A DNA stretch of 64,000 nt from Sipunculus nudus. Its lineage: Eukaryota > Annelida > Sipuncula > Golfingiida > Sipunculidae. The notes below the pieces were generated by a model. That model did not search any database and was not told where the DNA came from. It was given only the letters and a program-made list of their open reading frames with translations. The stretch is taken from NCBI GenBank assembly GCA_026874595.1, contig CM049311.1, positions 5,121,676 to 5,185,675 of the forward strand, read 5' to 3'. Position numbers and translations under genes: made by a program. Below, in pieces: positions 37,101 to 63,570 of this stretch. Positions within the stretch are counted from its first letter, which is position 1, and each line of letters starts with the position of its first letter.

Positions 37101-40100
37101 AAATATAATTTTTTATTAAAAATTATAAGAGTATCATATGCTTTTTTAAATAAAATATAACTGAAATGATTATTAAAATAATATTATAGAATATATTAAT
37201 GAATGCATTCATGAATACATTTTGAAAGTATTTGCACTGGTATTCAAATACTTTCATTTTTACCCGAATTCCCATTCTTATGCAAGAAATTTTATAATGA
37301 TTCATATTTGTATTCATATAAATTTGCAAAGTATTCGCACCATGTCTTGTATTTATTCAGTTTTAGCCAAACAATGATGTTGAGAATCCAGAATATACAA
37401 AATTCACAATGATCATAAGTACCTGGTTTTATGGCTTTTATTTATATTTAAAAAAAATAAATGTTATATATTCACATTGGACTACCTTCACATCAATCTT
37501 CACACTAGACAGTAGGAATCTAGATTAATATTATCAACTGCATTTTTGTCTATCATTAATTTCCTTCATATGATCCCTAATGATTAGTAATGAATAATAT
37601 GATTTATTTTTGTTATCATTAAAATTGAACTGAAAAATACCATAGGTGACTGCATGGTGTTATTTGGAATATGTGACATTCTATTCATCCATACAAGATT
37701 CTTACATCATCAGTAACTGTAAGTTAATTTCCTGTTACTCATCAACTAACAAATTCCTTTTCTATTAATTTTTCTTTAATTTGTTATTAAAAACCAATAA
37801 AAATTTATTAATTTATTGTTTATTGTTATGTTGTTGGTCAAAACAACTACTAGATGAGTTGGTTGGACACCTGGATCAACTGTGGCTGGCCATAAGCTGC
37901 CTGGCTGCCCCAGTGTATGCCTTACCTCAAGCTTGCATAATTTGCTGAAGGTCAACATACAGGTGACTGAAGAGGGGCTGGGGAGAGCCTGGGTCTGACA
38001 TGGTCTCAAAAAAACTTTAACAAAAGCTACAATTTTTGGCCCATTTCTTTCAGCTTTCTATACTAAAAAGCTGAAATCTTCATGTGTGCATGATATGAAA
38101 ATTATATCAACTGTGCTCACAGGTAACAAACATGCCATGGTCAAAGTTGGGCAAAATTTAAGGTACTAATTTTATATTTACACTAATAACTTATAAAATT
38201 TGAAAAATTCAGAACTAATTTTGGGTATTCAATTGAATATTGATTAAATAATGTTACATCCCTGACAAAAAATCTCTAGCTTCAGCAATCCTCTTGTTAA
38301 GGGAGTAAATATATTTCTTGATTTTTAACAAAGTGCATTATGTTTGGGCCCATAACTTAAAACAACTAGAATACGGGTAGTCGACAAGCGACTACGTGTA
38401 TCCGCCTAAATCAGAGTGGAACGGCTGAAGTGAGGCATGGATTAAGTGGCAAGGGGAAATAAAGTGAAGTGTTGCATATTAGCATGGATGTCTGCAGCCA
38501 AATTGTGTATGAAGGTTGCCCCCCCTACCACAAAATCCAGAAAGCCATCCCAGTTGTATACATATGCAAAATTTAAGGCAGATAAGTCAAACCACTACAT
38601 GTATATGAGTGATTTTAGCCCGTGGCAGACAATCAGATGGACGCTGAGCAAAAATGGTTGCAGGTGACGGCACCAGTTTTGCGTATGATAAAGAGCTATG
38701 TGAGAACTATACACATGCAAAACTTTGGCCCAATCGGTCAAACGGTTCCCAAGATATGAGCTTGGATGTCTGCTGCATAAACTAGAATGCAGGTGGCTCC
38801 ACCTGTCATAAAATCAAGAGAGCTGTCGGGGATGTATAAACCTGCAAAATTTTAGCCAGATATGTCAAACCACTGCCGAGATATGAGTGATTTTATCCCA
38901 TGGCAGACAAACAGACAGGAGCTGTGCAAAAATGGCTGTAGGTGGCGCCACCAGTTTTGCGTATGTTATAAAGCTCTCCAAGGGCTACATTTGTGCAAAA
39001 AAATGTTCCTGATCGGTCAAACGGTTCCCGAGATATGAGCTTGGATGTCTGCAGCATAAACGTGAATGTAGGTGGCGCCCTCTGTCACAAAATCAGAAAA
39101 GCTATCCAGGATGTTTACGCATGCCAAATTTCAGGTGAATTAGTCAAGTCACTGCAGAGATATGAGTGATTTTAACCCAAGGCAGACGAACAGATGGACA
39201 CTGTGCAAACATGGTTGCAGGTGGCGCCACCATTTTTTGTGTATGTTATAAAGCTCTCCAAGGGCTACATTTGTGCAAAAAAATTTTCCTGATCGGTCAA
39301 ATGGTTCCCGAGATACGAGCTTGGATGTCTGCAGCGTAAACGTGAATGTAGGTGGCGCCACCTGTCACAAAATCAGAAAAGCTATCCAGGATGTATACGC
39401 ATGCCAAATTTCAGGTGAATTAGTCAAGTCACTGCAGAGATATGAGTGATTTTAACCCAAGGCAGACGAACAGATGGACACTGTGCAAACATGGTTGCAG
39501 GTGGCGCCACCATTTTTTGTGTATGTTATATAGCTCCAAGGGGTACATTTGTGCAAAAAAATTTTCCTGATCCGTCAAACGGTTCCCGAGATATGTGGGT
39601 TTATGTGTGGAAACAGACGCACAAACGGACGCAGAGCGCAGAGGAAAGGTCAGAGGTCAAAACAAAATCGGGGCGCAGCAGTTCACATGTGACCCAAACA
39701 TAATCCCGGGTTTCGTAAAATTCCGCCCAGCGGTTACGGAGGAGTTCCGGAAACCTATGCGGCGGCGGCGGCGGCGTGCAGCTGAAAACATAGTATCCGC
39801 AAAACTCTGTTTTGGCGGATACAATTACGCAAAACTGACATCATTTCTGGCATGTGCATAGCGAATGTATAGAAAAATATGTATATTATATATGATCAAA
39901 GTCAGATCAGTGGTTTTGATATAAGGCAGTCTTGTGTAACAATGGGTTTTTAACGGAAAAATGAAGTTTTCATTGATATCTAGAAGGAATTAAGTCCTAG
40001 TGACCAAATTCTTGGCATGGTAGGGGATTTTGGAGACCTCTAACTGTATGCCAAACTGAGAGCTGAAGCTGGGGAGCTGAGGTCTAGCAAACTGCATAAT

Positions 40101-43100: not shown

Positions 43101-46100
43101 GAGAGAGATTGGAACCATGGTTGAAAATTTTGTTACCCAGTGAATTTTTTAATCAATTTCTGCATCTGGATCATTTTGGAGGAGGATTCTGGTATTGTTT
43201 AGACCTACTGGTATTGTTAAGACCTACTTGTATTGTTAAGACTAACTGGTATTGATAAGACTAACTGGTATTGATAAGACTTGTAACATTCTGAAGTGGA
43301 AATTCGAGATTATTTCTGAGTTTAACATGTCTGCACATACACACATACAAACAGACCTGACTGCAATACCCCACCCTTCCTATCTGTGACGAGGGTACAG
43401 CCAGCATGGCACATTTAGGGTCTAAGCTGCTGACCCCTGGTGGGAAGAAGCAAACAAGCCACCAATTCCAGTTAACCTCCATTGATTACAGCAGAAACAT
43501 TCCATAAGCTGCGGAACTAGGAGGGGCAGGTCACATCCTCTCCTAATTTTTGATGCAGAGGTAGGCCGCATCAGTAGCTTTGTCACCGACATTGATATCA
43601 GCGAACATGCACTTTATATATATATATTCTTTATACAAGTTCATTAGTATTACACAATTGTTTGCATTATTTACCATTGAATTACCAATCAAAAGTAAAA
43701 TTGCTCATGTTTGACTACTTGAAACCACTGGACAGAGCACAACTTAAGTAGCCTCCACTTTTTGACATGTTCAAAACCTATGGTTGTAAGGGTTTCCTGG
43801 TAAATTTTTATATATCTGACTCTTTCAGGTATCTACAAGAGAAGATCATCATTAATAACACACCTCTGCAACTGGAATTTCCATGAGAGTCGCCTGTGAA
43901 TAAGACTCAGAATCTTCTTCAAGATTATCGATCCCAGCTGATGCCATCATATAAACCTCCTTCTCTGCCGTTAACTTTCTACGGAAGCTTCCTCGTGACC
44001 TTTTTAAAGCATAAGCTCCGCAGCTTGGGTATCTAGGAAAAACAGCCTTAATAGAAAGCTGCAATTCTTGATTTTGTGAAACAAGTATAGAATTTTACAT
44101 GAAAAAGTATCAAAATGTCTGGAAAAGAAATAAAGTGTAAATCAATGCCTAACTGTATAAATTTCATTATACTTCATTGTCTAACATCCTTTTAACCAGC
44201 TATAGGGAAGAAACTCACAGTTATATGTAGCACATAATGGCACAAAATCCTCGGTATTTCTTATTTCAAGTCTTTTCTAATCAAACGCCAGCATGAACAC
44301 AGCACAGATTTGCTCAATAAAATGCTGATAAATTACAAGTATATATTGACTCTGTTTATCTATTTCTCCAGGATTCAGAAATACATGTGTAAATGTGTGT
44401 TATTATGTGTAAATATATGTTTTGAGAAAAAAAGTATGACAAGATATAACAGCTGAAATAAATTTTTGAAAAGTATCACACAATGTCTAGACACCAGACA
44501 GAGCCAGGTCAGTTGCCATAGTGATGTCTGGACCCCACCTGGTTGTACTGAGTGACCTCTTGATTTGGATGCTGAAACTCAGCATGTTATCAGTCTGTTT
44601 TCAAACACAGAAAGCCTTTTTAATTGGCTACACTGCTTTTATAAAGCTGCATTTACCCAAACTATTCTTATAAAACTGGCAGAACCCTACCATAGGATAA
44701 TTCTTGTAAAGTTTAAACCAATCAGCTTAACAGTTTCATCATAAAACAGTGTATAAGCTAGAAGAGTCTAAAATTACATTTTCACTTGTAAAAAAAACAG
44801 ATCAATGTAGGCGGCGCCACCAATACCTCAATTTAAGATATGACATATGTGACAAACATTGGCATAAAATTTGGTGATGATACCTCTAGATGTTTCTGAG
44901 ATTTTAATTTTAGTACACTTTTTTGGACAGATGACTAAGTTCCACCTCCTGTAACTCGGGTAAAAATCTCTGAACTGGAACCATTCTAACAAACTTGAGA
45001 AAGATTGTTCCAGGGATCATTTCTGTGAAATACTGGAAAATTTGGCTGGACAGTTTCGTATATGAAGATTTTTTAAGCTTTTTAAGCTTTTTCCCTATAA
45101 AATCTCAGAAAATGCCGTTAGAAAAAAATTAACAAAATCTGATAGTTTTTCAGATGACTATTTATTTGGAAAAAATTTGGTGATGCTAGCTCCTGCCATT
45201 TTTGAGATAGCTATGGTTCACCCATATGATAGTATATGGGCTAAGGTATGGACACCAGGTGGCGCCACACCATTGCATCAGCTCACAGGTTCACTAAAAA
45301 GTATAAGTAAGAAAGACCAGCAGTATTAATTAATTCTCTTCTTATTTTTATTTTTTTACAGCCAGATGAAAATCATTCACCTGTTGTGCAGGTAAAGTGC
45401 ATGAACTGGAGAAATGGATGAGATTTCAGCTGCAGACATCATAGCCATTAACACAAACAGTGTGGTCATTAACACTCCAGCAAAGCTTTACAGGACCATG
45501 ATAAAATAAACTTGCTCTGTCTTATAATAACAATGACTGATTCAAACCAAGCTATCTCATCAGTAAAATAGATTAATTACAACAGTGATGTTGTTCCATC
45601 TAAAAATAGCTGTCTTTATGGCTGTTACTGGTGATCATACTGAAACCATGGTGACCAAATCTGTTCCCTGAACAGGTCAAGTGTAAAAAAATCAGGCAAG
45701 TCCCTAATCTCTAGTACCTCTGTCACAACCTTAGTGTACTTGAAATGGATGGAGTTTACAGTGCATTGTCCCACATCTATGCAAATGTAATTTCAAAACA
45801 TTCTGTCCACTTAGCATATAACACTTTCATGCTAAATAAAAATATCAAGATACATGATGCCAAACTTAAAGTCTTTGGTGTTTTCAGTGTAAGGTTTTGT
45901 ACTTTGAAGATTTAAATGAGACGTTTACTGACAGAACTCGGCAAATGATACTTGATGAAGACTATAATCTTGTTCAGGAAGAGGAGAAACTGAAAGTGGG
46001 TTGCCTATTGCAGAAACAGTGAGAGTAAACCATAGTACTTAATTGAACAGTCAGGCACACTAAGGTGGCATAGTTAATTACTAACCAGCAAAATACTTAA

Positions 46101-49100
46101 GGTAACAAATAGGTGAGTCAACAAACAGTTAAATAATCCTTTATTCATTCTCCAAATTCTTGAAGTCTGCCCTGACATCCAAATTATAAGCTTTAAATGA
46201 AAATCAATTACAAAACACGGACATTAGTCAAAATATGATGTACTTCTATGGACTTTGAACTAGTATTTACATTTAGTTATCTTCCTGATGCTACTGATAA
46301 TGGTAATGTGATGATAGGATGTTATTACAATAAACAATTTAAAGCTGCTGTTATATTTTGAAGTTAAGCCACGATATGTTCTTGTTTTTAAAGAAAGTGG
46401 GATATTATGAAATGTGCTTCATGGCAAGTGGGCATTGTTTGTTATGTGTCACACTTTATCAATATGTGACATGAGCACGTGAAGTAAGCATGTGTTGTCC
46501 ATGATTAGGGATTTTTTTTAAAATACATGTAAAGTGATTAATGCTTGCATGTCAGTCAAGCTTGTGTCTATGGCAGCTTTGCTCTTTATACAGCCTTGTA
46601 TAACAAGGGGTCAGTTATTTACATGAGAAGACCATCATTACAACACGCCTCCACAACAGGAACTGCCATGACAGTCCCCTACATCTAGACTGACTCCGCA
46701 TCCTCTTCACACCATCACTCACAGCAGTGGCCTCATGAGAGCTGTCCTCCCTATTTGCCTCGAACAAGTCTGGATCTATCAAGGACAGCCTTCATATCAT
46801 GTATTCCCTTCTCTAACACTATTTTCACATCCTTTGGTAAATAAATCCTGTTTTGTAAATGTGTGTACTGGATTAGTGAACAATATTTAAGCTGTAGATG
46901 TTTTTAGCACGGACTACCAAGACAGCACGATGAGCAAACCATGTTGCAATCACATATCCTAAATTTAAGAAAATGATAGGATGCATGTTATATTTGGATG
47001 TTACATCAAATTACAAAATTGCCTTAAACATTAGATTATATGGCATGTGTCTATAAGGTATCTAAACTGGGAGCATGTCCAGAATGTCCTGGACAATGCT
47101 AAGGATTTGAAAAATTCCTCTTATATGTCCCAGACCAATCACAAGACTGGATAAGTCCCAGTGATTCCTCTAGTCAGCCCTAGCCAAAATAAAACCATTT
47201 ATTCTTCCAGAATGTGTAAGACCAAGGACCAGGGTCATTGGTCTAGATTGACCTAAAGCATTAAACATACTGGAGACAAGACATACAAGACAATCCACAC
47301 CATTTGAGAAAATCCTCCAGAATGGCTCAGGCCATCCACTTCACCATTCTCAATCAGATCAGCCATCATAATTTGAGCTTCTCAGCTCAGGCCATTCACT
47401 GCACCACTCTCAATCAGATCAGCCATCATAAGGTGAGCTTCTCAGCTCAGGCCATCCACTTCACCACTCTCAATCAGATCAGCCATCATAAGGTGAGCTT
47501 CTCAGCTCAGGCCATCCACTGCACCACTCTCAATCAGATCAGCCATCATAAGGTGAGCTTCTCAGCTCAGGCCATCCACTTCCCCACTCTCAATCAGATC
47601 AGCCATCATAATTTGAGCTTCTCAGCTCAGGCCATTCACTGCACCACTCTCAATCAGATCAGCCATCATAAGGTGAGCTTCTCAGCTCAGGCCATCCACT
47701 TCACCACTCTCAATCAGATCAGCCATCATAAGGTGAGCTTCTCAGCTGAGGCCATCCACTGCACCACTCTCAATCAGATCAGCCATCATAAGGTGAGCTT
47801 CTCAGCTCAGGCCATCCACTTCATCATTCTCAATCAGATCAGCCATCATAAGGTGAGCTTCTCAGCTCAGGCCATCCACTGCACCACTCTCAATCAGATC
47901 AGCCATCATAAGGTGAGCTTCTCAGCTCAGGCCATCCACTTCACCATTCTCAATCAGATCAGCCATCATAATTTGAGCTTCTCAGCTCAGGCCATTCACT
48001 GCACCACTCTCAATCAGATCAGCCATCATAAGGTGAGCTTCTCAGCTCAGGCCATCCACTTCACCACTCTCAATCAGATCAGCCATCATAAGGTGAGCTT
48101 CTCAGCTCAGGCCATCCACTGCACCACTCTCAATCAGATCAGCCATCATTAGGTGAACTTCTCAGCTCAGGCCATCCACTTCACCACTCTCAATCAGATC
48201 AGCCATCATAAGGTGAGCTTCTCAGCTCAGGCCATCCACTTCACCACTCTCAATCAGATCAGCCATCATAAGGTGAGCTTCTCAGCTCAGGCCATCCACT
48301 TCACCACTCTCAATCAGATCAGCCATCATAAGGTGAACTTCTCAGCTCAGGCCATCCACTTCACCACTCTCAATCAGATCAGCCATCATAAGGTGAGCTT
48401 CTCAGCTCAGGCCATCCACTTCACCACTCTCAATCAGATCAGCCATCATAAGGTGAGCTTCTCAGCTCAGGCCATCCACTTCACCACTCTCAATCAGATC
48501 AGCCATCATAAGGTGAGCTTCTCAGCTCAGGCCATCCACTTCACCACTCTCAATCAGATCAGCCATCATAAGGTGAGCTTCTCAGCTCAGGCCATCCACT
48601 TCACCACTCTCAATCAGATCAGCCATCATAAGGTGAGCTTCTCAGCACAGGCCATCCACTTCACCACTCTAAATCAGATCAGCAATCATAAGGTGAGCTT
48701 CTCAGCTCAGGCCATCCACTTCACCACTCTCAATCAGATCAGCCATCATAAGGTGAGCTTCTCAGCTCAGGCCATTCACTGCACCACTCTCAATCAGATC
48801 AGCCATCATAAGGTGAGCTTCTCAGCTCAGGCCATCCACTTCACCACTCTAAATCAGATCAGCAATCATAAGGTGAGCTTCTCAGCTCAGGCCATCCACT
48901 TCACCACTCTCAATCAGATCAGCCATCATAAGGTGAGCTTCTCAGCTCAGGCCATTCACTGCACCACTCTCAATCAGATCAGCCATCATAAGGTTAGCTT
49001 CTCAGCTCAGGCCATCCACTTCACCACTCTCAATCAGATCAGCCATCATAAGGTGAGCTTCTCAGCTCAGGCCATCCACTTCACCACTCTCAATCAGATC

Positions 49101-52100
49101 AGCCATCATAAGGTGAGCTTCTTAGCTCAGGCCATTCACTGCACCACTCTCAATCAGATCAGCCATAATAAGGTGAGCTTCTCAGCTCAGGCCATCCACT
49201 GCACCACTCTCAATCAGATCAGCCATCATAAGGTGAGCTTCTCAGCTCAGGCCATCCACTTCACCACTCTCAATCAGATCAGCCATCATAATGTGAGCTT
49301 CTCAGCTCAGGCCATCCACTTCACCACTCTCAATCAGATCAGCCATCATAATGTGAGCTTCTCAGCTAAGGCCATCCACTGCACCACTCTCAATCAGATC
49401 AGCCATCATAAGGTGAGCTTCTCAGCTCAGGCCATCCACTGCACCACTCTCAATCAGATCAGCCATCATAAGGTGAGCTTCTCAGCACAGGCCATCCACT
49501 TCACCACTCTCAATCAGATCGTCCATCATAAGGTGAGCTTCTCAGCACAGGCCATCCACTTCACCACTCTCAATCAGATCGTCCATCATAAGGTGAGCTT
49601 CTCAGCTCAGACCATCCACTGCACCACTCTCAATCAGATCAGCAATCATAAGGTGAGCTTCTCAGCTCAGGCCATCCACTTCACCACTCTCAATCAGATC
49701 AGCAATCATAAGGTGAGCTTCTCAGCTAAGGCCATCCACTTCACCACCCTCAATCAGATCAGCCATCATAAGGTGAGCTTCTCAGCTCAGGCCATCCGCT
49801 TCACCACTCTCAATCAGATCAGCCATCATAAGGTGAGCTTCTCAGCTCAGGCCATCCACTTCACCACTCTCAATCAGATCAGCCATCATAAGGTGAGCTT
49901 CTCAGCTCAGGCCATCCACTGCACCACTCTCAATCAGATCAGCAATCATAAGGTGAGCTTCTCAGCTAAGGCCATCCACTGCACCACTCTCAATCAGATC
50001 AGCCATCATAAGGTGAGCTTTTCAGCTTAGGCCATCCACTTCACCACTCTCAATCAGATCAGCCATCATAAGGTGAGCTTCTCAGCTCAGGCCATCCACT
50101 GCACCACTCTCAATCAGATCAGCCATCATAAGGTGAGCTTCTCAGCTCAGGCCATCCACTTCACCACTCTCAATCAGATCAGCTATCATAAGGTGAGCTT
50201 CTTAGCTCAGGCCATCCACTGCACCACTCTCAATCAGATCAGCCATCATACGGCAAGCTTCTCTCTCTGCTGTTAATGTTCCTCAGAGTATTTTATCTTT
50301 TTATAATTCTAATGGCATATAAATCTTTTTTTTTTAATTGTGCATACTGGGTTAGGGAAAGACCTCTGAGCCTCAGAGGTTTTAAGTATGGTTGCACTGT
50401 CACAAACATCCTGCACCATAACTTATTTACTAACAATAGTGATATGAATGCTGAATACCATATTTTATTGTAAAAGTTATCCTCTAGAATGTCTTAGACC
50501 ATCTGCTGGACTGGAGTATTCATCTATAGAATGTCCTAGACCATCTGCTGGACTGGAGTATTCCTCTATAGAATGTCCTAGACCATCTGCTGGACTGGAG
50601 TATTCCTCTATAGAATGTCCTAGACCATCTGCTGGACTGGATTATTCCTCTAGAATGTCCTAGACTATCTGCTGGACTAGAGTATTCCTCTATAGAATGT
50701 CCTAGACCATCTGCTTGACTGGCGTATTCCTCTATAGAATGTCCTAGACCATCTGCTGGTATTCCTCTGGAATGTCCTAGACCATCTGCTGGACTGGAGT
50801 ATTCCTCTATAGAATGTCCTAAACCATCTGCTGGACTGGAGTATTCCTCTAGAATGTCCTAGACTATCTGCTGGACTGGAGTATTCCTCTAGAATGTCCT
50901 AGACTATCTGCTGGTATTCCTCTAGAATGTCCTAGACCATCTGCTGGACTGGAGTATTCCTCTATAGAATGTCCTAGACCATCTACTGGACTGGAGAATT
51001 CCTCTAGAGTGTTCTAGACCATCTATTAGACTGAATCAATTCATCTATAATGTCCAAGACCACCCACACGACAGGAGTAATAACTCTAGAATGTCTTAGA
51101 CCACCCATAGGGATGGAGTAATCTGTCTAGAATGTCTTACACTATCAACAGAACCAGAATAAATCCTCAAGAATGTCCTAAACTATTAAGAGGATTAGAA
51201 TAATTCATCTGGAATATCACAGACCATCCAGATGAATTCTTTATTTAGAGGAAGTGAAAAATACCAATCAAATATACCAAACAGGGTAATACAAAAAGAC
51301 TGAACCCTTCTCTGACTTTGTAGGAATATGATGTTTCGCTTAGTGGTTGTGTCCAGTGTGACACTGTGTCCTGGGTTCATGTTTTATGGGCATAATATGG
51401 ACAGAATATGGTTGTATCAAACATTTGCCAATATGTGCCACATGATAGATTTCTGCTGTATGTGTGTTTGAGTCCTTGTGGGTGACTATATTCTTTTGTA
51501 TGGTGGTTTATATCTGTTATGTAACTATAGTCCAATGCATTTCTTACTCCTGGATACTTGGTGTTTCTTTTTTTAAGTTTGGTGTGTCCTGTGTGTGGTT
51601 ATGCAGTGTGCAGATGAGGCATGAATTGTAACTCAGATCAAGATAAATGCTGTAACTCACAGATTACAGAATACTACTGTCTTAGCCATACACAGAGATC
51701 ATGATAAACTCTGTAACTCACAGATTACAGAACACCACCATCCCAGCCATAGAGAGTGATCATGATAAACTCTGTAACTCACAGATTACAGAACACCACA
51801 ATCCCAGCCATAGAGAGTGATCATGATAAACTCTGTAACTCACAGATTACAGAACACTACTGTCTCAGCCATAGACAGAGATCATGATAAACTCTGTAAC
51901 TCACAGATTACAGAACACTACTGTCTCAGCCATAGACAGAGATCATGATAAACTCTGTAACTCACAGATTACAGAACACTACTGTCTCAGCCATAGACAG
52001 AGATCATGATAAACTCTGTAACTCACAGATTACAGAACACTACTGTCTCAGCCATTGACAGAGATCATGATAAACTCTGTAACTCACAGATTACAGAACA

Positions 52101-55100
52101 CCACCATCCCAGCCATAGAGAGTGATCATGATAAACTCTGTAACTCACAGATTACAGAACACCACCATCCCAGCCATAGAGAGAGTGATCATGATAAACT
52201 CTGTAACTCACAGATTACAGAACACTACTGTCTCAGCCATAGACAGAGATCATGATAAACTCTGTAACTCACAGATTACAGAACACTACTGTCTCAGCCA
52301 TAGACAGAGATCATGATAAACTCTGTAACTCACAGATTACAGAACACTACTGTCTCAGCCATAGACAGAGATCATGATAAACTCTGTAACTCACAGATTA
52401 CAGAACACTACTGTCTCAGCCATAGACAGAGATCATGATAAACTCTGTAACTCACAGATTACAGAACACTACTGTCTCAGCCATAGACAGAGATCATGAT
52501 AAACTCTGTAACTCACAGATTACAGAACACCACCATCCCAGCCATAGAGAGTGATCATGATAAACTCTGTAACTAACAGATTACAGAACACTACTGTCTC
52601 AGCCATAGACAGAGATCATGATAAACTCTGTAACTCACAGATTACAGAACACCACCATCCCAGCCATAGAGAGTGATCATGATAAACTCTGTAACTCACA
52701 GATTACAGAACACTACTGTCTCAGCCATAGACAGAGATCATGATAAACTCTGTAACTCACAGATTACAAATCACCACCATCCCAACCATAGAGAGTGATC
52801 ATGATAAACTCTGTAACTAACAGATTACAGAACACTACTGTCTCAGCCATAGACAGAGATCATGATAAACTCTGTAACTCACAGATTACAGAACACCACC
52901 ATCCCAGCCATAGAGAGTGATCATGATAAACTCTGTAACTAACAGATTACAGAACACTACTGTCTCAGCCATAGACAGAGATCATGATAAACTCTGTAAC
53001 TCACAGATTACATAACACCACCATCCCAGCCATAGAGAGTGATCATGATAAACTCTGTAACTAACAGATTACAGAACACTACTGTCTCAGACATAGACAG
53101 AGATCATGATAAACTCTGTAACTCACAGATTACATAACACCACCATCCCAGCCATAGAGAGTGATCATGATAAACTCTGTAACTCACAGATTACAGAACA
53201 CTACTGTCTCAGCCATAGACAGAGATCATGATAAACTCTGTAACTCACAGATTACATAACACCACCATCCCAGCCATAGAGAGTGATCATGATAAACTCT
53301 GTAACTAACAGATTACAGAACACCACCATCCCAGCCATAGAGAGTGATCATGATATACTCTGTTACACACAGATTACAGAACACCACCAACCCAGCCATA
53401 GAGAGTGATCATGATATACTCTGTAACTCACAGATTACAGAACACTACTGTCTCAGCCATAGAGAGAGATCATGATATACTCTGTAAATCACAGATTACA
53501 GAACACCACCATCCCAGCCATAGAGAGAGATCATGATATACTCTGTAAATCACAGATTACAGAAAACCACCATCCCAGCCATAGAGAGTACTCTGCACAA
53601 TTCACCATAACTAGCTGTACAATACATGTACAATAAATAACAATGCATGTACAATAAATAAAGTTTAAACTTGCCATACTCTCGTGTGTGTGTGCTGTGT
53701 CAAGTGTTTGGTCATGCAAACATTTTGTTTGCTCTGTGTTTTGGTTAAGCTGGTGTGTCAAGAGTCTTGTGGCCCCAAGAGTGGTTATAGTAAATATATC
53801 AAATATTTGGTTGTTATATCCTTATTTGTGTGTATATATGAGTGAAGAAGAAGACTTATGGAAATGCCCTACAAAAACAGTGAATACTGGATATCTGATT
53901 TCCCTAGCAAAATAGATACTCATTTTCATCCTGAAATTCTAAACTTTATCTTGATACCTAATATGCAAATTATTTTTTAAATGTATTTGCAAAATAGGGC
54001 TTTATAATCCATTTTCACTGGACTGCATAGGAAAGAAACATAAATAACAAGGATTTTATCCTTTAAATTCTTCTCTTTCTACAAAAACAATGGAACTTGC
54101 TAATGATATCAAGCAAGATTTGTGTAAGAAAGCCCATGTGTGTCCACATAAAGGCAATTATAAATTTGTGTTCACTTGATTGGCATTCAAACCCTCTTTC
54201 AAAAGTAAATGGCATGAACATCATCTGGATGTTGAAAGTTGCTTTAGACAAAGACTCAATGTCAGCAACTCAGTATCAGAATTATTATTCATGTCATGAT
54301 TGAAATATTTCAAGATTGAAGAAAATGTATATATTTTAAAAAGTCAGATAAAGTTTGAAAAAAAAATTGCTTTTCAGCATTGACAATATTCCAGAGTAAG
54401 TCCTACAACTGAGCTAAAGTACCAACATTCCATAGCACAGGCATTTTTCATAAGCTTTGAAACAGCAAGTGTAGGTGCATGGCACTGTCTGTTGAATGAG
54501 GATGAAAATAAAACTGATGATAAATGGGGAGTTTGTCACCTTTTGATTCCAGATTCCTGTGCATAATGAAGGGAAATCTAAATGTTCTGGAAGCATTTAG
54601 GCAAATAAGAGAAGCTAAAATAAATATTCAAAAGAGATTGTTAAATTCCTTTTAGAATTGAAGTCCGGTAACAATGTCACTTGTGATTATATTATTCCAC
54701 TACTGCAGCATTAATACTATACATGTGTACTACACTCAATATCCCCTCCCAGATTGTGTAAATGTTGCATCACAATATCAATAGTACTATCAGGTGTCCC
54801 AGTATCAGCACAATGACAATCCGTCATCACCAATACTAAAGTGATGTACAACCTCTTGATATAGCCTCTCATCTCCATATAATATAGGTACATAGAGTAA
54901 AAGTAGCCACACTGGTTCAAATTAAAATGCTTAGTAGCCTTTCCTACTACTGAGTTTAAATACTAAGCCAAGTGATCCTGGCTGATCAATGGAGTATTGC
55001 AACACAAATACAATAATGATGTAAAATCTGTCCATTAACCCAAACTGTATTTCTAGTATACTAATCTATACAAATGCAGCAACCTGGAAACCAACACAAA

Positions 55101-57677
55101 CCTAGGACTCACTGTAGAATGTACTATCCAAGCAAAACCATAATGATCTATTTTGCACCAAAAAAAAACAAATAATGATACTACATAAATGTAACAATCG
55201 CATGCAGCAAGACGTGCTGAAACAGAGTAAAACAGTCGAGACTAAAGCAAACGGACTCAAAAGCAATGAATAAAGTAGTACTGCAGATAGTTATATTTAT
55301 TTATCACAATAAAAAAAGCATTCTCAGGTCCAACAATCTGTAGCTGTCTATATATTCAGTATAATATCTGTTATATGTACTGTATAAAACCGGTGTCAGT
55401 CCTGTATACAGTATGACACATCAAATGTTTTTGTAGTATTGACTGACATGTTTTTTAGTTCATGCAACCCTCAGCTTTCCAAGGTAGATAATTTTCACAG
55501 AACAATTTAATTAAGAAATACTTTTTATACCTTTATATGGATTTATTATAATTTTGTGTTTTTTACATGCTGGTGGTATTTTTTTAAGATACCTGGTTTG
55601 TCCACAAAGCTGGTGCAAGTCAGAAGGTTATGGGGTTTGCAATTTTAAAAGATAATTTTAATACAACTTAAATCTTATATTTTATATGAATTATGAAGGC
55701 TACCTGAACGTGTTTTCTTTGGTAAATGATATAGGTAATCATAAATTATCAGGAATGATAAATAAAAAGCACATCAGAATGTCCTATACTATGATTACTA
55801 TACATTTATCTGGCTGATATGTTATTTAATAGTAATAATACACTTGTAAATTTATATTATATAATGACATAGTAGTGTACCTCATAGCATTATTTTCTAA
55901 TATTGTGCCTCATCCTACATCAATCTTTCTCATTTATTGGACAATAAAATACTGAGGTTCTGAGCACTGAGAACTTGTTAAGCTGAAATTGTCAAAATAA
56001 TGCTGAAAATCTAAAATTAATGTAATCTGATTGAGAAGAACAAACCATAATATTAGGATATACACTCCTGACCAAGACATAGGCAAAAAAGTTGCTGCAG
56101 GTTTAAATGACCAGTGTTGTACAAGCGAGATGACAATTAATCCAACTATAATTTGAGGGATCAGGGCATGGTCCAAAAAAGCGTTATTCTACTCTTAACT
56201 TTTCAAATAGATGTCCCCTTAGCACAACACTCTCCCCACAGATATATTCTCAGGTCCTGTGAGTACTTTCTTGTGGTATCCCCAAGGCCTTTTCAAACCC
56301 TGACAGGTTAACTTCTCCCAGTTTCTTGAAACTGCTCATGAGAGATGCATTTTTATGTACACACTGAAATCCAGGTGTCACTGATCATGTACCTAAATAA
56401 TGGGTACACCAAAAGTCTTAATTAAATAAATAATAATTATTATTAATGAGCTAATGGCAGTTCTTTATTACAGTTTAGTCCATGCTCATTGGTTTTTTAT
56501 CTGTGCCCTTTGACAATTCATTGTGACAATCAATTTCGCTTTACAAGGTTAATGATACTGATGCCATGGTTTTCTACATAATGATATTTCTGAATTTTTA
56601 TTTATCTAAACAGAAATCTTTCAGATAAAAGGTACTGTAAGTCTGTTTGTCTCTTTCAGGATTAAGCGTCCTGATATAGCACTCTGATGTGTGTCATGAG
56701 GTACAATGTATTTTAGAAAAAAATACTTAAGCACTGCTGATGCTTTAAACCAAGGAAAGTAGAAAACAGTGACATAATTCAAGAATAAACAAACACTATT
56801 ACAGTTTTATACCAAAAAAAAAAACTTTAAAATTATTTTAGACTGTTTATGCATAATTAATGCTTTACGCACAGATATTAATCTTTGTATGAACTAACAG
56901 ATCTGCAGAAAGCTTTTCACCTGAGAACTGTTTGACTTCAGACACCTTACAATATTACAAATTTTATTTGCAGACAACCCATCGGTTGGTTACCACCTGC
57001 TTTTGGTAATATTTTAGAAAGGTTTCATTTAAGAACATTCTATGTTCTACACCATCAGGAAAAATGTTATAGTGGGAGGAACACTTTAATTTATATGTTT
57101 GTACATGCTACACCCTCATGGATTATCATACATCATAATGCAAACAATTGTTAACCTTTGTTTCTTTTAAGTTTCACCTACAATTTTTTAGAGGGAGAGG
57201 CAGGACTCTTTATGTTTAATGCTTGAAAAAAAAAAAAGTTAAGCTGCATAAATAATGACGTTTCTTGATACAACATTGATACAAATAATACTTAACTCCA
57301 CAAAATATGTCTGGATGAAAGTTTTCTGTATGGGTATACAGTCCATGTTAATATTCTATTTGAAACAAATGAGATTATATCCTTCAATTCAATTTAATAA
57401 TCAATTATTTAATTAAGTCCTATATATTTATGCTGTAATTAATTTATTTATTATCACCAAATACAAGGGGTACCACATGCCAGAAATGACACACAAGGGC
57501 ACCTGGACAACAGATGTATCCATTAAAGGTGTCTCTTCAAACAACTCATCACTGAGCTCGTCAAACGTCAACTGTTCACTAGTCCTTTCAAGCATCATGG
57601 CACGCTTGTTTGGAGTCATGGTTAGCGCTCTCAGACTGCCAGAGCGCCGATCTTTGCGTTCCCTCCCATTGAACTGC
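33981..57677 (-). CDS. DUF4139-family (F37C4.5-like) protein gene, 3' part; exons A/B, then three constitutive exons
   Basis: Proposed minus-strand exons in transcription order are: alternative exon A (57677-57503) or B (44032-43864), then 36341-36102, 35695-35462 and 34166-33981 (stop TAG at 33983-33981). The joined C-terminal region is about 275-280 residues and matches the DUF4139 domain of animal ‘F37C4.5-like’ proteins, whose bacterial relatives are called mucoidy inhibitor A. Diagnostic stretches are EIVRRSTIPSDNAGHKVSVA, LLAGPTNVFLDNNFISK, EEFTCSLGVDPSIRIDY, VIQVKNTR and ELVLRYSVEHP. The molecular function of the family is not established. The N-terminal half (a conserved domain and coiled coil in relatives) was not found and may lie beyond 64000. 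Introns hold transposable elements, exon relics and satellites. Splice joins are inferred from homology, phase and GT/AG signals. Confidence 0.8.
34167..35461 (-). other. Intron of the DUF4139 gene
   Basis: Bounded by donor GTCAGT (35461-35456, minus) and acceptor CTCTCAG before 34166. No exon or repeat of note is visible inside. Confidence 0.75.
35462..35695 (-). CDS. DUF4139 gene, penultimate exon
   Basis: Acceptor CCCACAG before 35695; 78 codons, phase 0 at both ends; donor AAG followed by GTCAGT. It reads SSLSAVSPQEEFTCSLGVDP, then SIRIDYRPVHKYREQSGLIS and KTTSTTYKQVIQVKNTR, ending QISDQLPKTTEEKLK. The ‘SPQEEF-CSLGVDPSI–Y’ and ‘YKQ–VKNT’ patterns are hallmarks of the animal DUF4139 proteins. 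Confidence 0.9.
35696..36101 (-). other. Intron of the DUF4139 gene with a (TA)n tract
   Basis: Donor AAAG followed by GTATTT (minus, at 36101). Contains about 13 TA dinucleotides at 35812-35837. No exon is visible. Confidence 0.75.
36102..36341 (-). CDS. DUF4139 gene, exon following the alternative exon pair
   Basis: Acceptor TTTCAG before 36341; 80 codons, phase 0 both ends. It starts VREGVTSTMYEIVRRSTIPS, continues DNAGHKVSVAIMDLKPEFEY, and ends LLAGPTNVFLDNNFISK. This is the most conserved part of the DUF4139 domain (STIPSDN–HKV–VA and GP–VFLDN–F). Its phase-0 start accepts either exon A (ending SVVQ) or exon B (ending PVAE). Confidence 0.92.
36342..36834 (-). other. Start of the ~7.5-kb intron between exon B and the 36.3-kb exon
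   Basis: AT-rich, no exon visible. Open frames are short and have no splice support. Confidence 0.6.
36835..40857 (+). mobile_element. Family-2 element, long composite copy (~4 kb) with nested family-3 insertion
   Basis: It starts at about 36835 with CAAGGGACCCATGGGTCACA then GCACTCAGCT, and ends near 40857 with GACAGACAGACAGCCGACGG, a short tail and GTCAGCTGAGCTAAAAATTA. Two stretches flanking the nested insert (38132-38364 and 40262-40495, both ending ‘GCATTATGTTTGGGCCCAT’) are direct copies, and 39866-40020 resembles 40540-40700. The element was therefore internally duplicated as well as invaded. It sits in the DUF4139 intron. No protein is encoded. Confidence 0.5.
38365..39835 (+). mobile_element. 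Family-3 element: GGTGGCGCCACC array with GTATCCGC/GCGGATAC ends
   Basis: It begins CTAGAATACGGGTAGTCGAC and GTGTATCCGCC, and ends near GGCGGATACAATTACGC, so the inner ends are inverted copies. Between them about four ~280-bp units occur (marker GGATGTCTGC at 38486, 38765, 39044 and 39324), each with AGGTGGCGCCACC-type palindromes. The right end carries a (GGC)n run at about 39760. It is related to the array at 22311-23660. Small open frames inside are repeat artefacts. Confidence 0.6.
40858..43863 (-). other. Intron of the DUF4139 gene, no exon seen
   Basis: Mostly unique AT-rich sequence. A C14 run lies at about 42987-43000. Four short near-repeats of ‘ACTGGTATTGTTAAGAC’ occur at 43190-43280. 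No splice-supported open frame was found. Confidence 0.5.
43864..44032 (-). CDS. DUF4139 gene, alternative exon B (169 bp)
   Basis: Acceptor TGTTTTTCCTAG before 44032; donor GCAGAG followed by GTGTGT. It is 169 bases long: one leftover base, then 56 codons. It reads YPSCGAYALKRSRGSFRRKL, TAEKEVYMMASAGIDNLEED and SESYSQATLMEIPVAE. It joins in phase to VREGVTSTMYE, as relatives do (‘–VAEV–EGATST–’). It is homologous to exon A: RRSGSLRALTM...KRAMM versus KRSRGSFRRKLTAEKEVYMM, and PLMDTSVVQ versus TLMEIPVAE. It encodes the variable, Met-rich linker before the conserved domain. Confidence 0.75.
44033..44483 (-). other. Intronic sequence upstream of exon B
   Basis: AT-rich; no exon or repeat recognised. 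Confidence 0.5.
44484..45300 (+). mobile_element. Family-1 element, 5'-truncated copy (~0.8 kb)
   Basis: It matches the right third of family-1 copy 1 (23780-24618) from ‘GTCTAGACACC’ and ‘AGCCAGGTCAGTTGCCATAG’ through GGCGGCGCCACC to GCTCACAGGTTCACTAAAAA. The left ~1.6 kb, including the GCGAACCTGT end, is missing. Confidence 0.7.
45362..45391 (+). CDS. Candidate 30-bp micro-exon (plus strand)
   Basis: A very good acceptor (T-rich tract then ACAG at 45358-45361), ten codons (PDENHSPVVQ) and a donor CAG followed by GTAAAG. It is phase 0 at both ends, like the candidate exon at 45888. It lies on the strand opposite to the DUF4139 gene, inside its intron. No family is recognised, and it could be a chance arrangement. 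Confidence 0.25.
45888..45995 (+). CDS. Candidate 36-codon exon (plus strand)
   Basis: Acceptor GGTGTTTTCAG (ending 45887), 108 bases without a stop, donor AAA followed by GTGGGT. It reads CKVLYFEDLNETFTDRTRQM then ILDEDYNLVQEEEKLK, a charged, protein-like composition unusual for the AT-rich intron around it. The frame stops soon after the donor. It would join the micro-exon at 45362 in phase. The parent gene is unknown, and it is nested antisense to the DUF4139 gene. Confidence 0.35.
45996..46648. other. Intronic sequence, no feature
   Basis: AT-rich with no splice-supported frame; nothing else is recognised. Confidence 0.45.
46649..46815 (-). pseudogene. Decayed duplicate of the alternative exon (relic C)
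   Basis: The minus strand shows a degenerate copy of exon A/B. The 3' end reads GTCATGGCAGTTCCTGTTGT then GGAG (MAVPVVE), parallel to exon B's LMEIPVAE. The middle has AGAGAAGGGAATACATGATA, parallel to exon B's GCAGAGAAGGAGGTTTATAT. The flank downstream (GAAGACCATCATTA...ACACGCC on the plus strand) also matches exon B's flank. In-frame stops (TAG twice, before MAVPVVE) and a donor changed from GT to GC (46648-46647) make it non-functional as an exon. Confidence 0.65.
46816..47049. other. Intronic flank of relic C
   Basis: The stretch around 46855-46880 (‘GTGTGTACTGGATTAG’) resembles 50337-50355 (‘GTGCATACTGGGTTAG’). Relics C and D therefore appear to share intron flank as well as exon sequence. 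No other feature. Confidence 0.4.
47050..47318. repeat. Degenerate copies of the ~42-bp repeat
   Basis: Phrases such as CCAGAATGTCCTGGACAA, ATGTCCCAGACCAATCACAA and CCAGAATGTGTAAGACC are diverged forms of the 42-bp unit that is well preserved at 50478-51010. They abut the first unit of the 60-bp satellite, which itself begins with the related CCTCCAGAATGGCTCAGGCC. Confidence 0.5.
47319..50255. repeat. 60-bp satellite array, ~49 copies
   Basis: The monomer has a constant length of 60 bases and few substitutions. Key phrases are CAATCAGATCAGCCATCATA, AGGTGAGCTTCTCAGCTCAG and GCCATCCACT(T/G)CACCACTCT. The first ~14 units alternate T/G at the CACT(T/G)CACC position and carry an AATTTGAGC variant at 47341, 47581 and 47941, forming 120- and 240-bp higher-order blocks. 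Later units are more homogeneous. On the plus strand one frame is open in nearly every unit (20-residue period, AQAIHFTTLNQISHHKVSFS), broken by single-base stops at 48150-48152 and 50028-50030. The monomer matches part of the duplicated DUF4139 exon in antisense. Confidence 0.97.
50221..50300 (-). pseudogene. Decayed duplicate of the alternative exon (relic D), source of the 60-bp satellite
   Basis: Reading the minus strand across the right edge of the satellite gives LTAEREACRMMADLIESGAV followed by DGLS and a stop. Exon B reads LTAEKEVYMMASAGIDNLEE at the same place. The conserved core at DNA level is TTAACAGCAGAGAGAGAAGC against TTAACGGCAGAGAAGGAGGT, then ATGATGGC. The next satellite units repeat EAHLMMADLIESGEVDGLS with a TGA each time. 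The copy is therefore an exon duplicate whose centre was amplified. The 3' half of the exon is not recognisable. Confidence 0.6.
50256..50477. other. Spacer between satellite arrays
   Basis: Contains the 5' part of relic D and its presumed intron flank. No gene. An open frame at 50276-50473 is not supported. Confidence 0.4.
50478..51240. repeat. ~42-bp minisatellite, decaying to the right
   Basis: About 12-13 clear units (TAGAATGTCCTAGACCATCT then GCTGGACTGGAGTATTCCTC), with length variants lacking the GACTGGA part or the TATA step. After about 51010 the units become strongly diverged (AATGTCCAAGACCACCCACA, AATGTCTTAGACCACCCATA) and fade by 51240. Degenerate copies also lie left of the 60-bp array. 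Confidence 0.9.
51241..51629. other. Spacer, no gene seen
   Basis: TG-rich sequence with no splice-supported reading frame. Confidence 0.4.
51630..53590. repeat. 61-bp satellite array, ~32 copies, two alternating variants
   Basis: The monomer contains GATCATGATAAACTCTGTAA, CTCACAGATTACAGAACA and GCCATAGA. Two variants differ in the middle: type 1 has CTACTGTCTCAGCCATAGAC and type 2 has CCACCATCCCAGCCATAGAG. Early units come in runs of one type. From about 52520 to 53260 they alternate strictly as a 122-bp dimer, and units after a type 2 unit often have TAACTAACAG instead of TAACTCACAG. The right-hand units are more diverged. No coding content. Confidence 0.95.
53591..56249. other. Intronic/intergenic sequence, no gene seen
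   Basis: AT-rich sequence with no splice-supported exon on either strand. A polymorphic-looking A-run occurs near 55160. Open frames up to 76 codons are unsupported. Confidence 0.45.
56250..56363 (-). CDS. Candidate terminal exon, 37 codons plus stop
   Basis: Minus strand: acceptor ACCTGGATTTCAG before 56363, then 37 codons and TGA (56252-56250). It reads CVHKNASLMSSFKKLGEVNL then SGFEKALGIPQESTHRT. The phase-0 start would accept exon A, so it could be an alternative last exon giving a short DUF4139-less product, or belong to another gene. The composition is protein-like, but I recognise no family. Confidence 0.22.
   Translation of the reverse strand, partial: CVHKNASLMSSFKKLGEVNLSGFEKALGIPQESTHRT
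56364..57502 (-). other. Intronic sequence downstream of exon A
   Basis: AT-rich with homopolymer runs; no exon recognised. Confidence 0.45.
57503..57677 (-). CDS. DUF4139 gene, alternative exon A (175 bp)
   Basis: Acceptor CAATTACAG before 57677; donor GTCCAG followed by GTGCCC (weak). It is 175 bases long: one leftover base, then 58 codons. It reads QFNGRERKDRRSGSLRALTM, TPNKRAMMLERTSEQLTFDE and LSDELFEETPLMDTSVVQ. It is homologous to exon B in layout: a basic start, a central Met-Met, an acidic stretch and a final ‘LM–V(V/A)(Q/E)’. It ends in phase 0 for the 36.3-kb exon. A tandem acceptor four bases downstream (GCAG) would give phase 0 instead. A plus-strand open frame here is a shadow. 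Confidence 0.65.
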
Positions 57678-59386
57678 CTGTAATTGCATTGGCTGTTATT
57701 GCAATTTTGCTTTGTATATATAATAAAGACAGATGAAAAAACTGTAGTCAGTTTAAACAGACAAGAAGTCACACCATTGAGCTTTTGAATAATTGTAATT
57801 AATGCAATTAAAACACCATGTTAAATGAGCAAACAGAGGAAAACCCACTTCTTAATGAAGTAATACAAGAGCAACACATTTCTTAAAACACCACTTAAGG
57901 CACAAATGTTCATCATCAAACACTGAAACTGCTGAGACTCAAACATAGGCGACTGATGAGATATCACAATGGATGGGGTAACATGGTATGGAAGTGAATG
58001 ACCTCATAACCCTGAATGTATAGGAAAGTTAATTATATACAGACATGATGAACATGATCCCCTAATATTACCATCAAATGACACATCTAATGCCCAAGAT
58101 CTGTCTCAGTCACATTTTTTAATGTATATTTTAAGCCAACAAATCCTATTTTGAACTGGAGATAGGTATAAACATCTTAAAGTAGTTTACCATTGCAGTA
58201 ATATGCAAAAAATAAAGGGATCAGTCAATTTTCAAGAACTATTGCATCTTTAAAAGTTTATTAGGTGTCATTTTTCTAGAGGTGTCCATAACCACAGGTT
58301 CCACTGAATCATTTAACAATACGCCAAACATATTCCAATTCTATACCACCACATGTCAATCATTTACTCCACCAGTGACTGCATATAAACTCAAAAGAGG
58401 ACCATGCATTTGACTCCTATGGTTGTAAATCAACAATATGACTGTTTTTAACTAAACACTTATTATCAATTAATTTAGAGATTACTTTCATGGGTTTACT
58501 TTTGGTTACACCTGTTTAGGACTTTTCTTTGAATGTATTTAAGATTGTAACCTGCCCCAGCCAACCCTGTATTTATCAAAGGAGATTAAATAACATGGAG
58601 TAAGCACCAAGATCAACGTCCAGCATCAGAGGGACATGTTAGCAACCCCAAAGGTTTCATTGCTGCTGCCTATTGTACGCACGGGGGATGCCCATTGTAC
58701 TTACTGTCTACCATTATCACAAAACCTAATAAAAGTCAAACAGTGCAATTGCTGCATATGATACAGTTTGTGTCAGCTTAGCCTAAGCATTGGTGTGCTG
58801 AATGATTCGCAGGAATTTTCATGAAATTTATGCAAGAGGAAGTTAGAAATAAGAATTTAATGCATGCGCATTAGATGATTAAAAGACATATGCATGTGCA
58901 GTCACTGGAAATCCAAATCCTTATATACTGGTTGTAACACTGAATGATTTTGGAGTCATGCTGCTTTCAATCTCTGCTTGTCCAGTGTCAAGCAGGGCAG
59001 GCTGTATATGTAATATTGGAGAGTACTGTTATTTTTTATTGTACCTGACTATACAACACAGAAACAATGTTATCAGTGAACAAAGCAACTGTTCCTAAAG
59101 ACTGGCCTGTCCTGGCTGAGAAATGAGTGGGTATTCCTATACAGTAACATTATTTTCGCAGATTTTTTTCATGTGAGCAAATCCCTTGTGAAATATAGTT
59201 CAAAAATAAATAACCCACATGCAATGTTACGGTGCTAACTAAAACTTAAATCTTAAAATTTCATCACACCTGAAAGAATATTTATCAAGCATGGGACTAA
59301 TATGACAGCTTCCTCGCCAAGCCATTCTGTGGTATCCTTGGAGATGTATCATGCTAGGTAAGCGCCAGATCAAAGAGCTTTTACAC
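57678..59386. other. No exon recognised
   Basis: The region immediately upstream of exon A. I looked for the conserved N-terminal part of DUF4139 proteins here and found none. Confidence 0.4.
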
Positions 59387-59458
59387 CTTGGTGTTAGGTT
59401 TCTTATCAAGATCACAAGCAACATCGGACATAATCAGCGATCCAGGTGCTGACTCCAT
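59387..59458 (-). CDS. Candidate first coding exon (24 codons)
   Basis: Minus-strand ATG at 59458, then MESAPGSLIMSDVACDLDKK and PNTK, ending at AAG followed by GTGTAA. The shape ‘DLDKKPNTK|V’ resembles the opening of DUF4139 proteins, where a short leader is followed by ‘D–LPTK-VTVY–DRAEV’. No following exon of that kind is visible before exon A, so this stays tentative. Confidence 0.25.
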
Positions 59459-61504
59459 CTTATTAAATCTCCTTGACTGAACACACAAGTTTGCCACTGG
59501 CTCATCCCTGAGAGACAAGCTCTGCTTATCACACAACATATCATCACCAGTCAATTAATGACATTGCAGCCAACTTATCTGTTCCTGTTGGGGCAAAACT
59601 GGTACCACAAGCTTGATCCACTAAACAATAACTTTAACAAAACATTTTGGGATTCTGGATAACAGCAAATTTTGGGCCAAACCTGTAGTGGTACTTGACA
59701 TATATATAAACCTTGTGTACTGGTTAAATAGACAGACACCCTCAACATCAGAACTGTTAAATAATAATTAATCATCAAACTGACTGGCATGTTAGACTCA
59801 CTGTAAGACTATGCTTATATAAATATTCTTAAAACTGGGGGCATTTCCACCTACAGATGTGCCTATGAGGTGTTTTGCCCCTCTATCAACAGAAAGTGCC
59901 AAGTCCTGTGATCTTAGCATGGTGTCAGGCTGGATGGAAAATAATGATTAAATAACAAATCTTTTTATATGCATTCAAGTTTCACCTTTTACAAGTATCA
60001 TTACATTCCAAATAAACCTGGCCAATGTTAAGAGGTTTTATCCCACAGAATTAAATCTTATCTTGTACTAATTCCTATTTCGCTATCTTAAAGTGAACTA
60101 AGAATTATGTGCATAATTTTTTCTTTTGGTCATCATAAAACATTTGTCACAGCAAGAAGCAGTACATAAACCGCTGTCAGTGGCAAACTATATTAGCAGG
60201 ATTAATGACCAATTTATTTAATAAAAAAATTATTAAATAATTCATGAACAATACAGATCTGCTGTTGCAAGTGAATGATTTGGCTCTGTAATGTTAATAA
60301 TATCTTCAAAATTACAATTCTGATGACCACATTTTAAAAGGAATGTTTTTGTAAACCTGCAAGTTTATTGTATGAAATGGTAAATTTTCTAATACATATT
60401 ATAGCATACTTAACCTCTTATATGGTTAGTCACTGTGCAAAGAGGGCTTTCCTTTACTGCAAAAGGGTAGAATTGTTATTGTTTGCTAGGGGGGAGGGGT
60501 AGTGGGCAGTTGTTGTGGAGGTGAATTGTGGGATAGAATACCCAAACTATCCGCTGAGGAAGATGCATCATCCGGAAAGTTTGTAAGGGTTAGGTACAAC
60601 ATGGAGTCAACAAACGGGAAAGGGGAAAAGTTGCCAATTAATAGATAAATACATTGATGTTATGACAATAAACATATTTACACAACTGATTTACATAATG
60701 TGCCAGCATGCAAACAACACAAGGTGCTGAATGTGCAAACACTGTACATCTGTCCCTCAAATTAAAAGTATATGTTATTATCTTTCAACCTTTTATAAGT
60801 GGACATGTATCTGATAACAGCCTTTAATCTAATGTTATACAATGTGATGGAGAACTGGTCAAATGATTGTAAATTGTACACAGGTAACTACATACTGACT
60901 TGGATTAACCTGGATTTTTTTTTTAATTTCTAAAAAAATTAACATTATTAAAAATATTTAAAAATAATAAAAATGACAGTCTGATATTTAACATATACCC
61001 CGAAGGTGTTTTGACAAGATTAAATATACAAACGATGCTGTTCCTGCTGCCACCTGTCTGTAAATGTATAAACTACTCTTTGAGACTCAACATGAACTCT
61101 GACAGATGAAACCCCAAAATGGCAATACAGAACATATCTAAATATAAACATAACACATGTAACAACCACAAAAATTAACCAAATGTAGTAGTTAATCTAC
61201 CTGGGTTAAAATTATGATGTTTATTCAAGTTAAACTGCCCCAAAATGTACAAATTAGGAATGTTGATCTACTGTTATTATTTTTTCTTTTGGTGGAATGT
61301 TCTGCAGTGTGTCACATTTATACAAATATCTCACCTACTCTATTGGCTTATGAATCAGTCACAGAGACATAAATGTATATGTGATCAATAGAAAACATAA
61401 ACTGACAGTGACATATTTTGGAAAGAATAATAGTAGACACTACTGGACTTGACAATGAAAGAAAGCAGAATGTCACGTTATAACTAGAGAAAGACAGTAT
61501 CAGG
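59459..61504. other. Mostly featureless; one two-way open segment at 60490-60582
   Basis: AT-rich. At 60490-60582 an acceptor-like TTTGCTAG precedes 31 plus-strand codons (ELWDRIPKLSAEEDASSGKF at the end) and a donor GTAAGG. The minus strand over the same bases also reads as a possible exon end (NFPDDASSSADSLGILSHNS, then PPQQLPTTPPP and a stop). I cannot decide the strand or confirm either. Confidence 0.3.
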
Positions 61505-63225: not shown

Positions 63226-63570
63226 ATGAAAGGAAACAGACAGTGCCCGATCTGTAACTGAAAGGAAGTAGAAAGTGCCAGATTTGTGAATGAAAGGAAG
63301 TTGACAGTGCCAGATTTGTGAATGAAAGGAAGTTGACAGTGCCAGATTTGTGAATGAAAGGAAGTTGACAGTGCCAGATTTGTGAATAAAAGGAAGTTGA
63401 CAGTGCCAGTTTTGTGAATGAAAGGAAGTTGACAGTGCCCGATCTGTAACTGAAAGGAAGTAGAAAGTGCCAGATTTGTGAATGAAAGGAAGTTGACAGT
63501 GCCAGATTTGTGAATGAAAGGAAGTTGACAGTGCCAGTTTTGTGAATGAAAGGAAATTGACAGTGCCAAC
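63226..63570. repeat. 32-bp minisatellite sharing the same core
   Basis: About 10 units of GAATGAAAGGAAGTTGACAG then TGCCAGATTTGT. A variant unit with CCCGATCTGTAACTGAAAGG occurs twice, about 190 bp apart, marking an internal block duplication. It shares the GACAGTGCCAGATTTGTGAA core with the adjoining array. Confidence 0.93.

Follow-up and report, generated by a model that had tools for sequence, protein, structure and literature searches.

A private 60-bp minisatellite in a Sipunculus nudus DUF4139 gene, likely grown where a dead exon copy joins an older minisatellite

Introduction

In principle any sequence could give rise to satellite repeats; among the seeds named in one review are ribosomal DNA (rDNA) spacer and transposable elements (PMC5615363). 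A 2019 review describes how a motif with short direct repeats on either side is amplified, and according to the legend of its Figure 6 a conversion from coding sequence to repeat is not proved (PMC6947457). In C. elegans, the intronic minisatellite CeRep25B, a 24-base family clustered on two chromosomes, shows enrichment in genes that have multiple splicing decisions (PMC4039745). Here we describe a 60-bp tandem array in Sipunculus nudus, in an intron of a minus-strand gene with a DUF4139 domain. The array lies within a window of 64,000 nucleotides (contig CM049311.1, C6:5121676-5185675), the whole stretch of DNA analysed, and likely grew from the junction of a dead exon copy with an older, 42-bp minisatellite.

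Like the satellites derived from rDNA spacer or transposable elements, the array is a tandem repeat with a recognisable source; unlike them, its source would be in part a protein-coding exon, and it occupies one locus rather than forming a genome-wide family. With minisatellites that originate through local duplication together with slippage or unequal exchange it shares a short unit, a single locus, a length of a few kb, homogenised units and an edge unit that is the most diverged of all. It differs from these in that its seed may be read as the place where a dead copy of an exon meets a minisatellite of greater age. CeRep25B and the array are both minisatellites in introns flanking alternative exons (predicted ones in our case); unlike CeRep25B, ours is one private array of local origin. 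Clusters of mutually exclusive exons with decayed copies resemble the locus as well, in that the alternative exons, A and B, have phases 2 and 0 and a decayed duplicate exon lies in the same intron. Unlike the members of such clusters, A and B have no significant sequence similarity, and the arrangement described here is read from genomic DNA.

Among the open-access titles and abstract openings listed, we found no exon-derived satellite or minisatellite, which is no proof of absence from print. If our reading is true, the locus would be an example of the coding-to-repeat direction that the cited legend marks as not proved (PMC6947457), part of a repeat unit can come from a dead copy of an exon, and new minisatellites may start at duplication junctions rather than from intact elements. 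For most tandem repeats the seed has been erased. In this locus a likely seed can still be read, along with its source exon, a dead copy that stayed unamplified and the point of fusion, all within ~8 kb, and the order of events is therefore testable in a few related genomes.

Results

The array is a private single-locus minisatellite

The array sits between exons A and B of the DUF4139 gene, at 47325-50264 of the window. A unit-by-unit listing gives 49 units of 60 bp (2.94 kb), which bears out the ~49 copies of the original prediction; repeat finding placed the end at 50263, with 49.0 copies. Mean pairwise divergence among units 1-48 is 4.1%, and unit 49, at the exon-like edge, shows the largest departure from the consensus (5/60 bases). 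By eye, a four-unit pattern recurs in units 1-14, at the left end of the array. The MMA-coding core GCCATCATA, which had been noticed in the monomer beforehand, is indeed there, occupying unit columns 38-46; it is intact in 38 and changed in 10 of units 1-48.

Searches of the genome (1.43 Gb, 153 contigs) with the whole array and with a two-unit query gave matches at its own locus only, the match counts of these searches being lower bounds, with very common words skipped. The unit falls within ~10-100 bp, the array within the range of 0.5 to several kb, and there is one locus: the array is a private single-locus minisatellite. The high copy number and the many or heterochromatic sites of a satellite DNA family were not found, the locus itself being the sole genome-wide match, and the label of satellite given earlier was an overstatement. 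Nor did we find the same repeat as an older satellite at unrelated sites, an observation that the original prediction had named as one that would refute it.

Read in the frame of the exon, the array holds 50 stops, and a coding role was set aside for this reason. The long plus-strand frame that runs through it with 2 stops is expected from a period divisible by three. We see no sign of function, and the array most likely has none.

A probable dead copy of exon B at the right edge of the array

On the minus strand the right edge of the array reads LTAEREACRMMADLIESGAVDGLS, in continuity with the array itself. The source exon, exon B (43864-44032, minus strand), is a 169-bp open frame of phase 2 in and 0 out with acceptor CTAG/A and donor GAG/GTGTGT (the slash marks the splice junction), and has a single protein-level place in the whole genome. 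The edge had been described as an antisense copy of this exon. We delimit this remnant, exon copy C, at 50242-50303 (minus strand): over 62 bp it is 72.9% identical to exon B, with 43 matches, 11 transitions and 5 transversions, and relative to exon B it carries a 3-bp insertion, a 5-bp deletion and a TGA upstream in the sense of the gene.

Under HOXD70 scoring the edge reaches 2088 against exon B, a score attained by 0/2000 shuffles and with an extreme-value estimate of 6e-6 for the pair. Locus scans covered 89 kb; in these, the best HOXD70 matches of exon B were a second copy, relic D (2551), then the array edge (2088), and the next unrelated place scored 1539. None of 4262 overlapping control segments reached the score of 50242-50312 (control maximum 1560). 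HOXD55 gave 0/2000 shuffles, or 1/2000 with more of the array included, and in three ad hoc transition-aware settings the edge came third, behind exon B and relic D. For both matrices the values used were those of the lastz defaults.

A hidden Markov model (HMM) of exon B together with relic D found the edge as its best non-member match, with an expectation value (E) of 0.023. Two of the 26 matches listed at E<=20 were B and D themselves and 22 lay in the array or its edges; the search for further exon copies yielded only two weak matches elsewhere (E 9.7 and 19). Matches in the array and its edges begin at model position 90-91 in 21 of the 22 cases and, the units being near-identical, amount to about one observation.

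Several results weigh against an exon ancestry of the edge. The transition-aware scoring was chosen post hoc, once the mismatches were seen to be mostly transitions (11 to 5). The part of the edge outside the array (50265-50312) is modest when taken alone, its score being reached by 11/4262 control segments, and plain scoring (match 2/mismatch -3) gives the edge 27, with 2/300 shuffles. Plain two-strand scans of the 89 kb with exon B alone placed it 3rd to 4th of 513-536 places, in ranks that count exon B itself and relic D, one setting giving an unrelated place the same score of 27; with exon B and 50-bp flanks it came 4th to 11th, and a BLOSUM62 peptide scan put it 13th, tied. By the plain alignment and peptide scans, given here next to the HOXD result, the edge is inseparable from chance. 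The likeness between edge and source exon is found with HOXD70 and HOXD55, then, and is weak under plain and BLOSUM62 scoring, and to that extent the earlier claim holds. Most likely, a dead copy of exon B lies at the right edge of the array, inside the gene's own intron.

Relic D and a putative duplicated unit

The unamplified copy, relic D (46611-46801, minus strand), comprises the 3' part of exon B, the donor region and ~40 bp of intron. Its identity to exon B is 72.3% over 46611-46765 (107/148 gap-free columns), and the B+D HMM reaches 46801. It contains two in-frame stops and alignment gaps, and comparison with exon B leaves us certain that relic D is a dead copy. Of the source exon, paralogous exon and relic that the original prediction had placed together in this locus, the first and the last are thus present as exon B and relic D; exon A as a sequence paralogue of B was not sustained, kinship being non-significant both for DNA (457 and 216/2000 shuffles reach the score) and for protein (98/2000).

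A spacer beside relic D (46835-46912) is homologous to one beside copy C (50313-50391), at 70.5% identity and with a score of 3158 against a maximum of 1605 in 200 shuffles; the next place in the locus scores <2000 for either spacer (1991 for the D-unit spacer). Each unit also has a ~42-bp minisatellite. That of the D unit, 42L (47078-47340), is a decayed block whose end overlaps the first monomer of the array, detected by BLAST and by nhmmer with a profile of the 42-bp repeat, which over the 89 kb gave E 1.9e-7 and 3.6e-5. That of the C unit, 42R (50480-51240), was delimited by repeat finding and the 42-bp profile, and its genome search matched here only. Spacer and block align jointly, 46835-47340 with 50313-50790, at 64.1% identity. 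This homology suggests that units D and C are tandem duplicates of a single segment made up of dead exon, spacer and 42-bp block. Since homologous spacers and 42-bp blocks stand beside both D and C, the array edge is where such a duplication predicts an exon copy. Neither this homology nor the 42-bp character of the left boundary, described below, formed part of the original prediction.

Other observations argue against such a duplication. Among the highest-scoring matches of the locus scan, the stretches that separate spacer from 42-bp block in units D and C fail to pick each other out, being too diverged, and the stretch between exon D and the D spacer likewise has no counterpart there. Relic D and the C edge are not significantly alike (431 and 218/2000, and 418 and 196/2000 shuffles). 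The parts of exon B that these two match share an overlap of ~33 bp only.

That the 42-bp unit stems from exon B was tested and rejected, the score being reached by 1918/2000 shuffles under HOXD70 and 1477/2000 under HOXD55. The D spacer showed no homology to sequence upstream of exon B (33/200 shuffles). Adjoining the 42-bp array, window 51635-53585 holds a 61-bp minisatellite of 32 units, whose genome match is at this locus only. Like the 60-bp array, those of 42 and 61 bp have this locus as their sole genome match, so arrays of this kind are common in the intron.

The monomer as a putative junction chimera

The left-boundary 21-mer (47320-47340), which includes monomer bases 1-16, resembles the 42-bp units. 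In the 89 kb outside the 60-bp array, 11 places match it at 15 or more of the 21 bases; every one of them belongs to the 42-bp array and has the same strand, the near-identity of the 42-bp units reducing these to few independent observations. A longer left-boundary piece matches the 42-bp array better than any shuffle (0/2000), and the decayed 42-bp repeat left of the array extends to 47338-47340, into the first monomer. The 3' end and donor of exon copy C, sought left of the array, were not found there (989/2000 shuffles; no further B+D profile match). In the best reading of these alignments, the monomer would be a junction chimera, with bases 1-16 derived from the 42-bp repeat, bases 17-37 of no assigned source and bases 38-60 (23 bp), which together with the edge form the aligned block, derived from the exon.

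The case for a 42-bp origin of the monomer's left end rests on the boundary piece including its flank. Without the flank, monomer bases 1-36 are not significantly similar to the whole 42-bp array (81/2000), which counts against the chimera, as does the leaning of the left boundary towards exon D (30/2000) and exon B (60/2000 shuffles) as well. Also on this side, the 21 bp of bases 17-37 are assigned to neither the 42-bp repeat nor the exon part, and the monomer alone is not significantly similar to exon B (224/2000 under HOXD70, p 0.11; 266/2000 under HOXD55) or to relic D (413/2000). The comparison of the monomer with the 42-bp unit alone was not significant either (305 and 543/2000). The unlikeness of the monomer alone to exon B and relic D fits a chimera. 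As to the original prediction, that an amplified 60-bp exon segment would align better than shuffled controls at edge and monomer, the edge did so with HOXD70 and HOXD55 and the monomer alone did not. The dead exon-B copy in its own intron most likely stands, but the unit is probably not simply exon, its left end matching the 42-bp repeat.

Proposed origin and rival explanations

We consider it likely that a dead exon copy became fused with a 42-bp minisatellite and that a piece spanning the junction was later amplified to 49 units. From the array and its restriction to the locus in our searches, relic D, the resemblance between exon B and the C edge, the D/C homology of spacers and 42-bp blocks and the 42-bp left boundary, we infer a single fusion step and the following order of events. 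Exon B would have been duplicated within its own intron, and the exon copy, intronic spacer and ~42-bp block would then have been duplicated in tandem to give units D and C. A breakpoint would have removed the 3' half of copy C and fused this copy to the first 42-bp block where that block ends, and copy C, with a stop and a frame-breaking deletion, would have been dead. Much later, ~60 bp across the fusion would have been amplified into 49 near-identical units, presumably by replication slippage or unequal exchange. Without a formal test, no clear short direct repeat flanking the array was seen by eye. Amplification probably took place long after the duplication and death of the exon, because the copies are diverged (B/D, B/C and the D/C spacers are each ~70-73% identical) while the units, ~96% identical, differ by 4%. 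We lean towards the view that the locus records each step from coding sequence to tandem repeat, in the form of a live exon, an unamplified dead copy, a dead copy joined with a minisatellite of older date and an array with a unit across that fusion.

The whole 60-bp unit might instead be exon, the array having grown inside copy C and the 42-bp likeness of its left end being due to chance. Consistent with this, the B+D profile aligns monomers (E ~1 to 17) and left boundary in register and strand, the leaning of the boundary to relic D extends to a longer piece (40 and 49/2000 shuffles), and one unit against exon B gives 50/2000 under HOXD55 (366/2000 under HOXD70). We find this explanation unlikely in view of the 42-bp array holding 11/11 close places of the left-boundary 21-mer, the continuation of the 42-bp block alignment into the first monomer and the failure to find an exon 3' end or donor left of the array. 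That the array is an ordinary local minisatellite devoid of exon ancestry, the likeness of its edge being a chance match from hard searching, is quite improbable: with its last partial unit the edge outscores all shuffles and control segments under HOXD70 (0/2000 and 0/4262), at a position that the independent D/C spacer and 42-bp homology predicts. This explanation draws on an intron full of private minisatellites (42, 61 and 71 bp nearby, those of 42 and 61 bp matched only here), on an edge that is weak under plain and peptide scoring and modest outside the array, and on the want of a match between relic D and the C edge.

In the reverse direction, exon B would have been recruited from repeat-rich intron sequence; repeat-to-coding conversion is what the 2019 review discusses (PMC6947457). 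For this locus such a course is hardly credible, as exon B occurs once, relic D copies exon, donor region and intron together, the array holds stops in the exon frame, and the units are far more alike than are exon B and copy C.

Gene setting and other repeats

The gene, recognised by Pfam profile match to DUF4139 (PF13598), spans the window on the minus strand. Animal members of DUF4139 are named F37C4.5-like. Two matches exceed the family cut-off, at C6:5157128-5157379 (window 35453-35704) and at C6:5195032-5195220, upstream of the window, and two fall under it (E 0.153 and 2.59). The former of the two that exceed it marks a minus-strand exon, given here by the span of the profile match, that covers profile positions 100-165 (E 1.9e-11). 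The upstream span holds three stops, which suggest that it probably includes an intron. The exon downstream of the alternative exons lies at 36120-36341 (minus strand, low end approximate), starting in phase 0 at TTTCAG/GTAAGAGAAGGA, with an acceptor and an open frame VREGVTSTMYEIVRR...NNFISK; on its own it has no Pfam match.

Exon A (57503-57677, minus strand), the alternative to exon B, is 175 bp long, phase 2 in and 0 out, and was recognised by its open frame and splice sites. The upstream exon ends in ...TTC CAA GAA AG/, phase 2. Skipping of both A and B would read AGG TAA, and use of both would shift the frame; as in a mutually exclusive cluster, the two have equal frame-breaking phases between common flanking exons. 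If both are exons, as predicted, A and B would therefore be mutually exclusive by frame, because of their 2/0 phases and their lengths.

A 3.6-kb segment with exon A and its flanks (window 57366-60972) is copied on another contig (L027 4821-8506; C1:10467620-10471305). The copy is ~95% identical in gap-free columns, with 174/177 for the exon and an open frame. It is flanked on both sides by a repeat that is also present at window 26747-28143, and the arrangement looks like exon capture by a mobile element. Within the same segment, window 58579-59476 is a dispersed intronic repeat of ~0.9 kb with matches at 64-89% identity spread over many contigs; it accounts for 65 of 68 listed matches of query 57366-60972, with 40 of 293 candidates scored.

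Further tandem repeats occur in the window. Dense 71-bp and 32-bp arrays at 61492-63568 have the motif GACAGTGCCAGATTTGTGAA in common, and two arrays of ~278-280 bp, at 22417-23450 and 38476-39595, contain the palindromic motif GGTGGCGCCACC and have consensus units that look alike.

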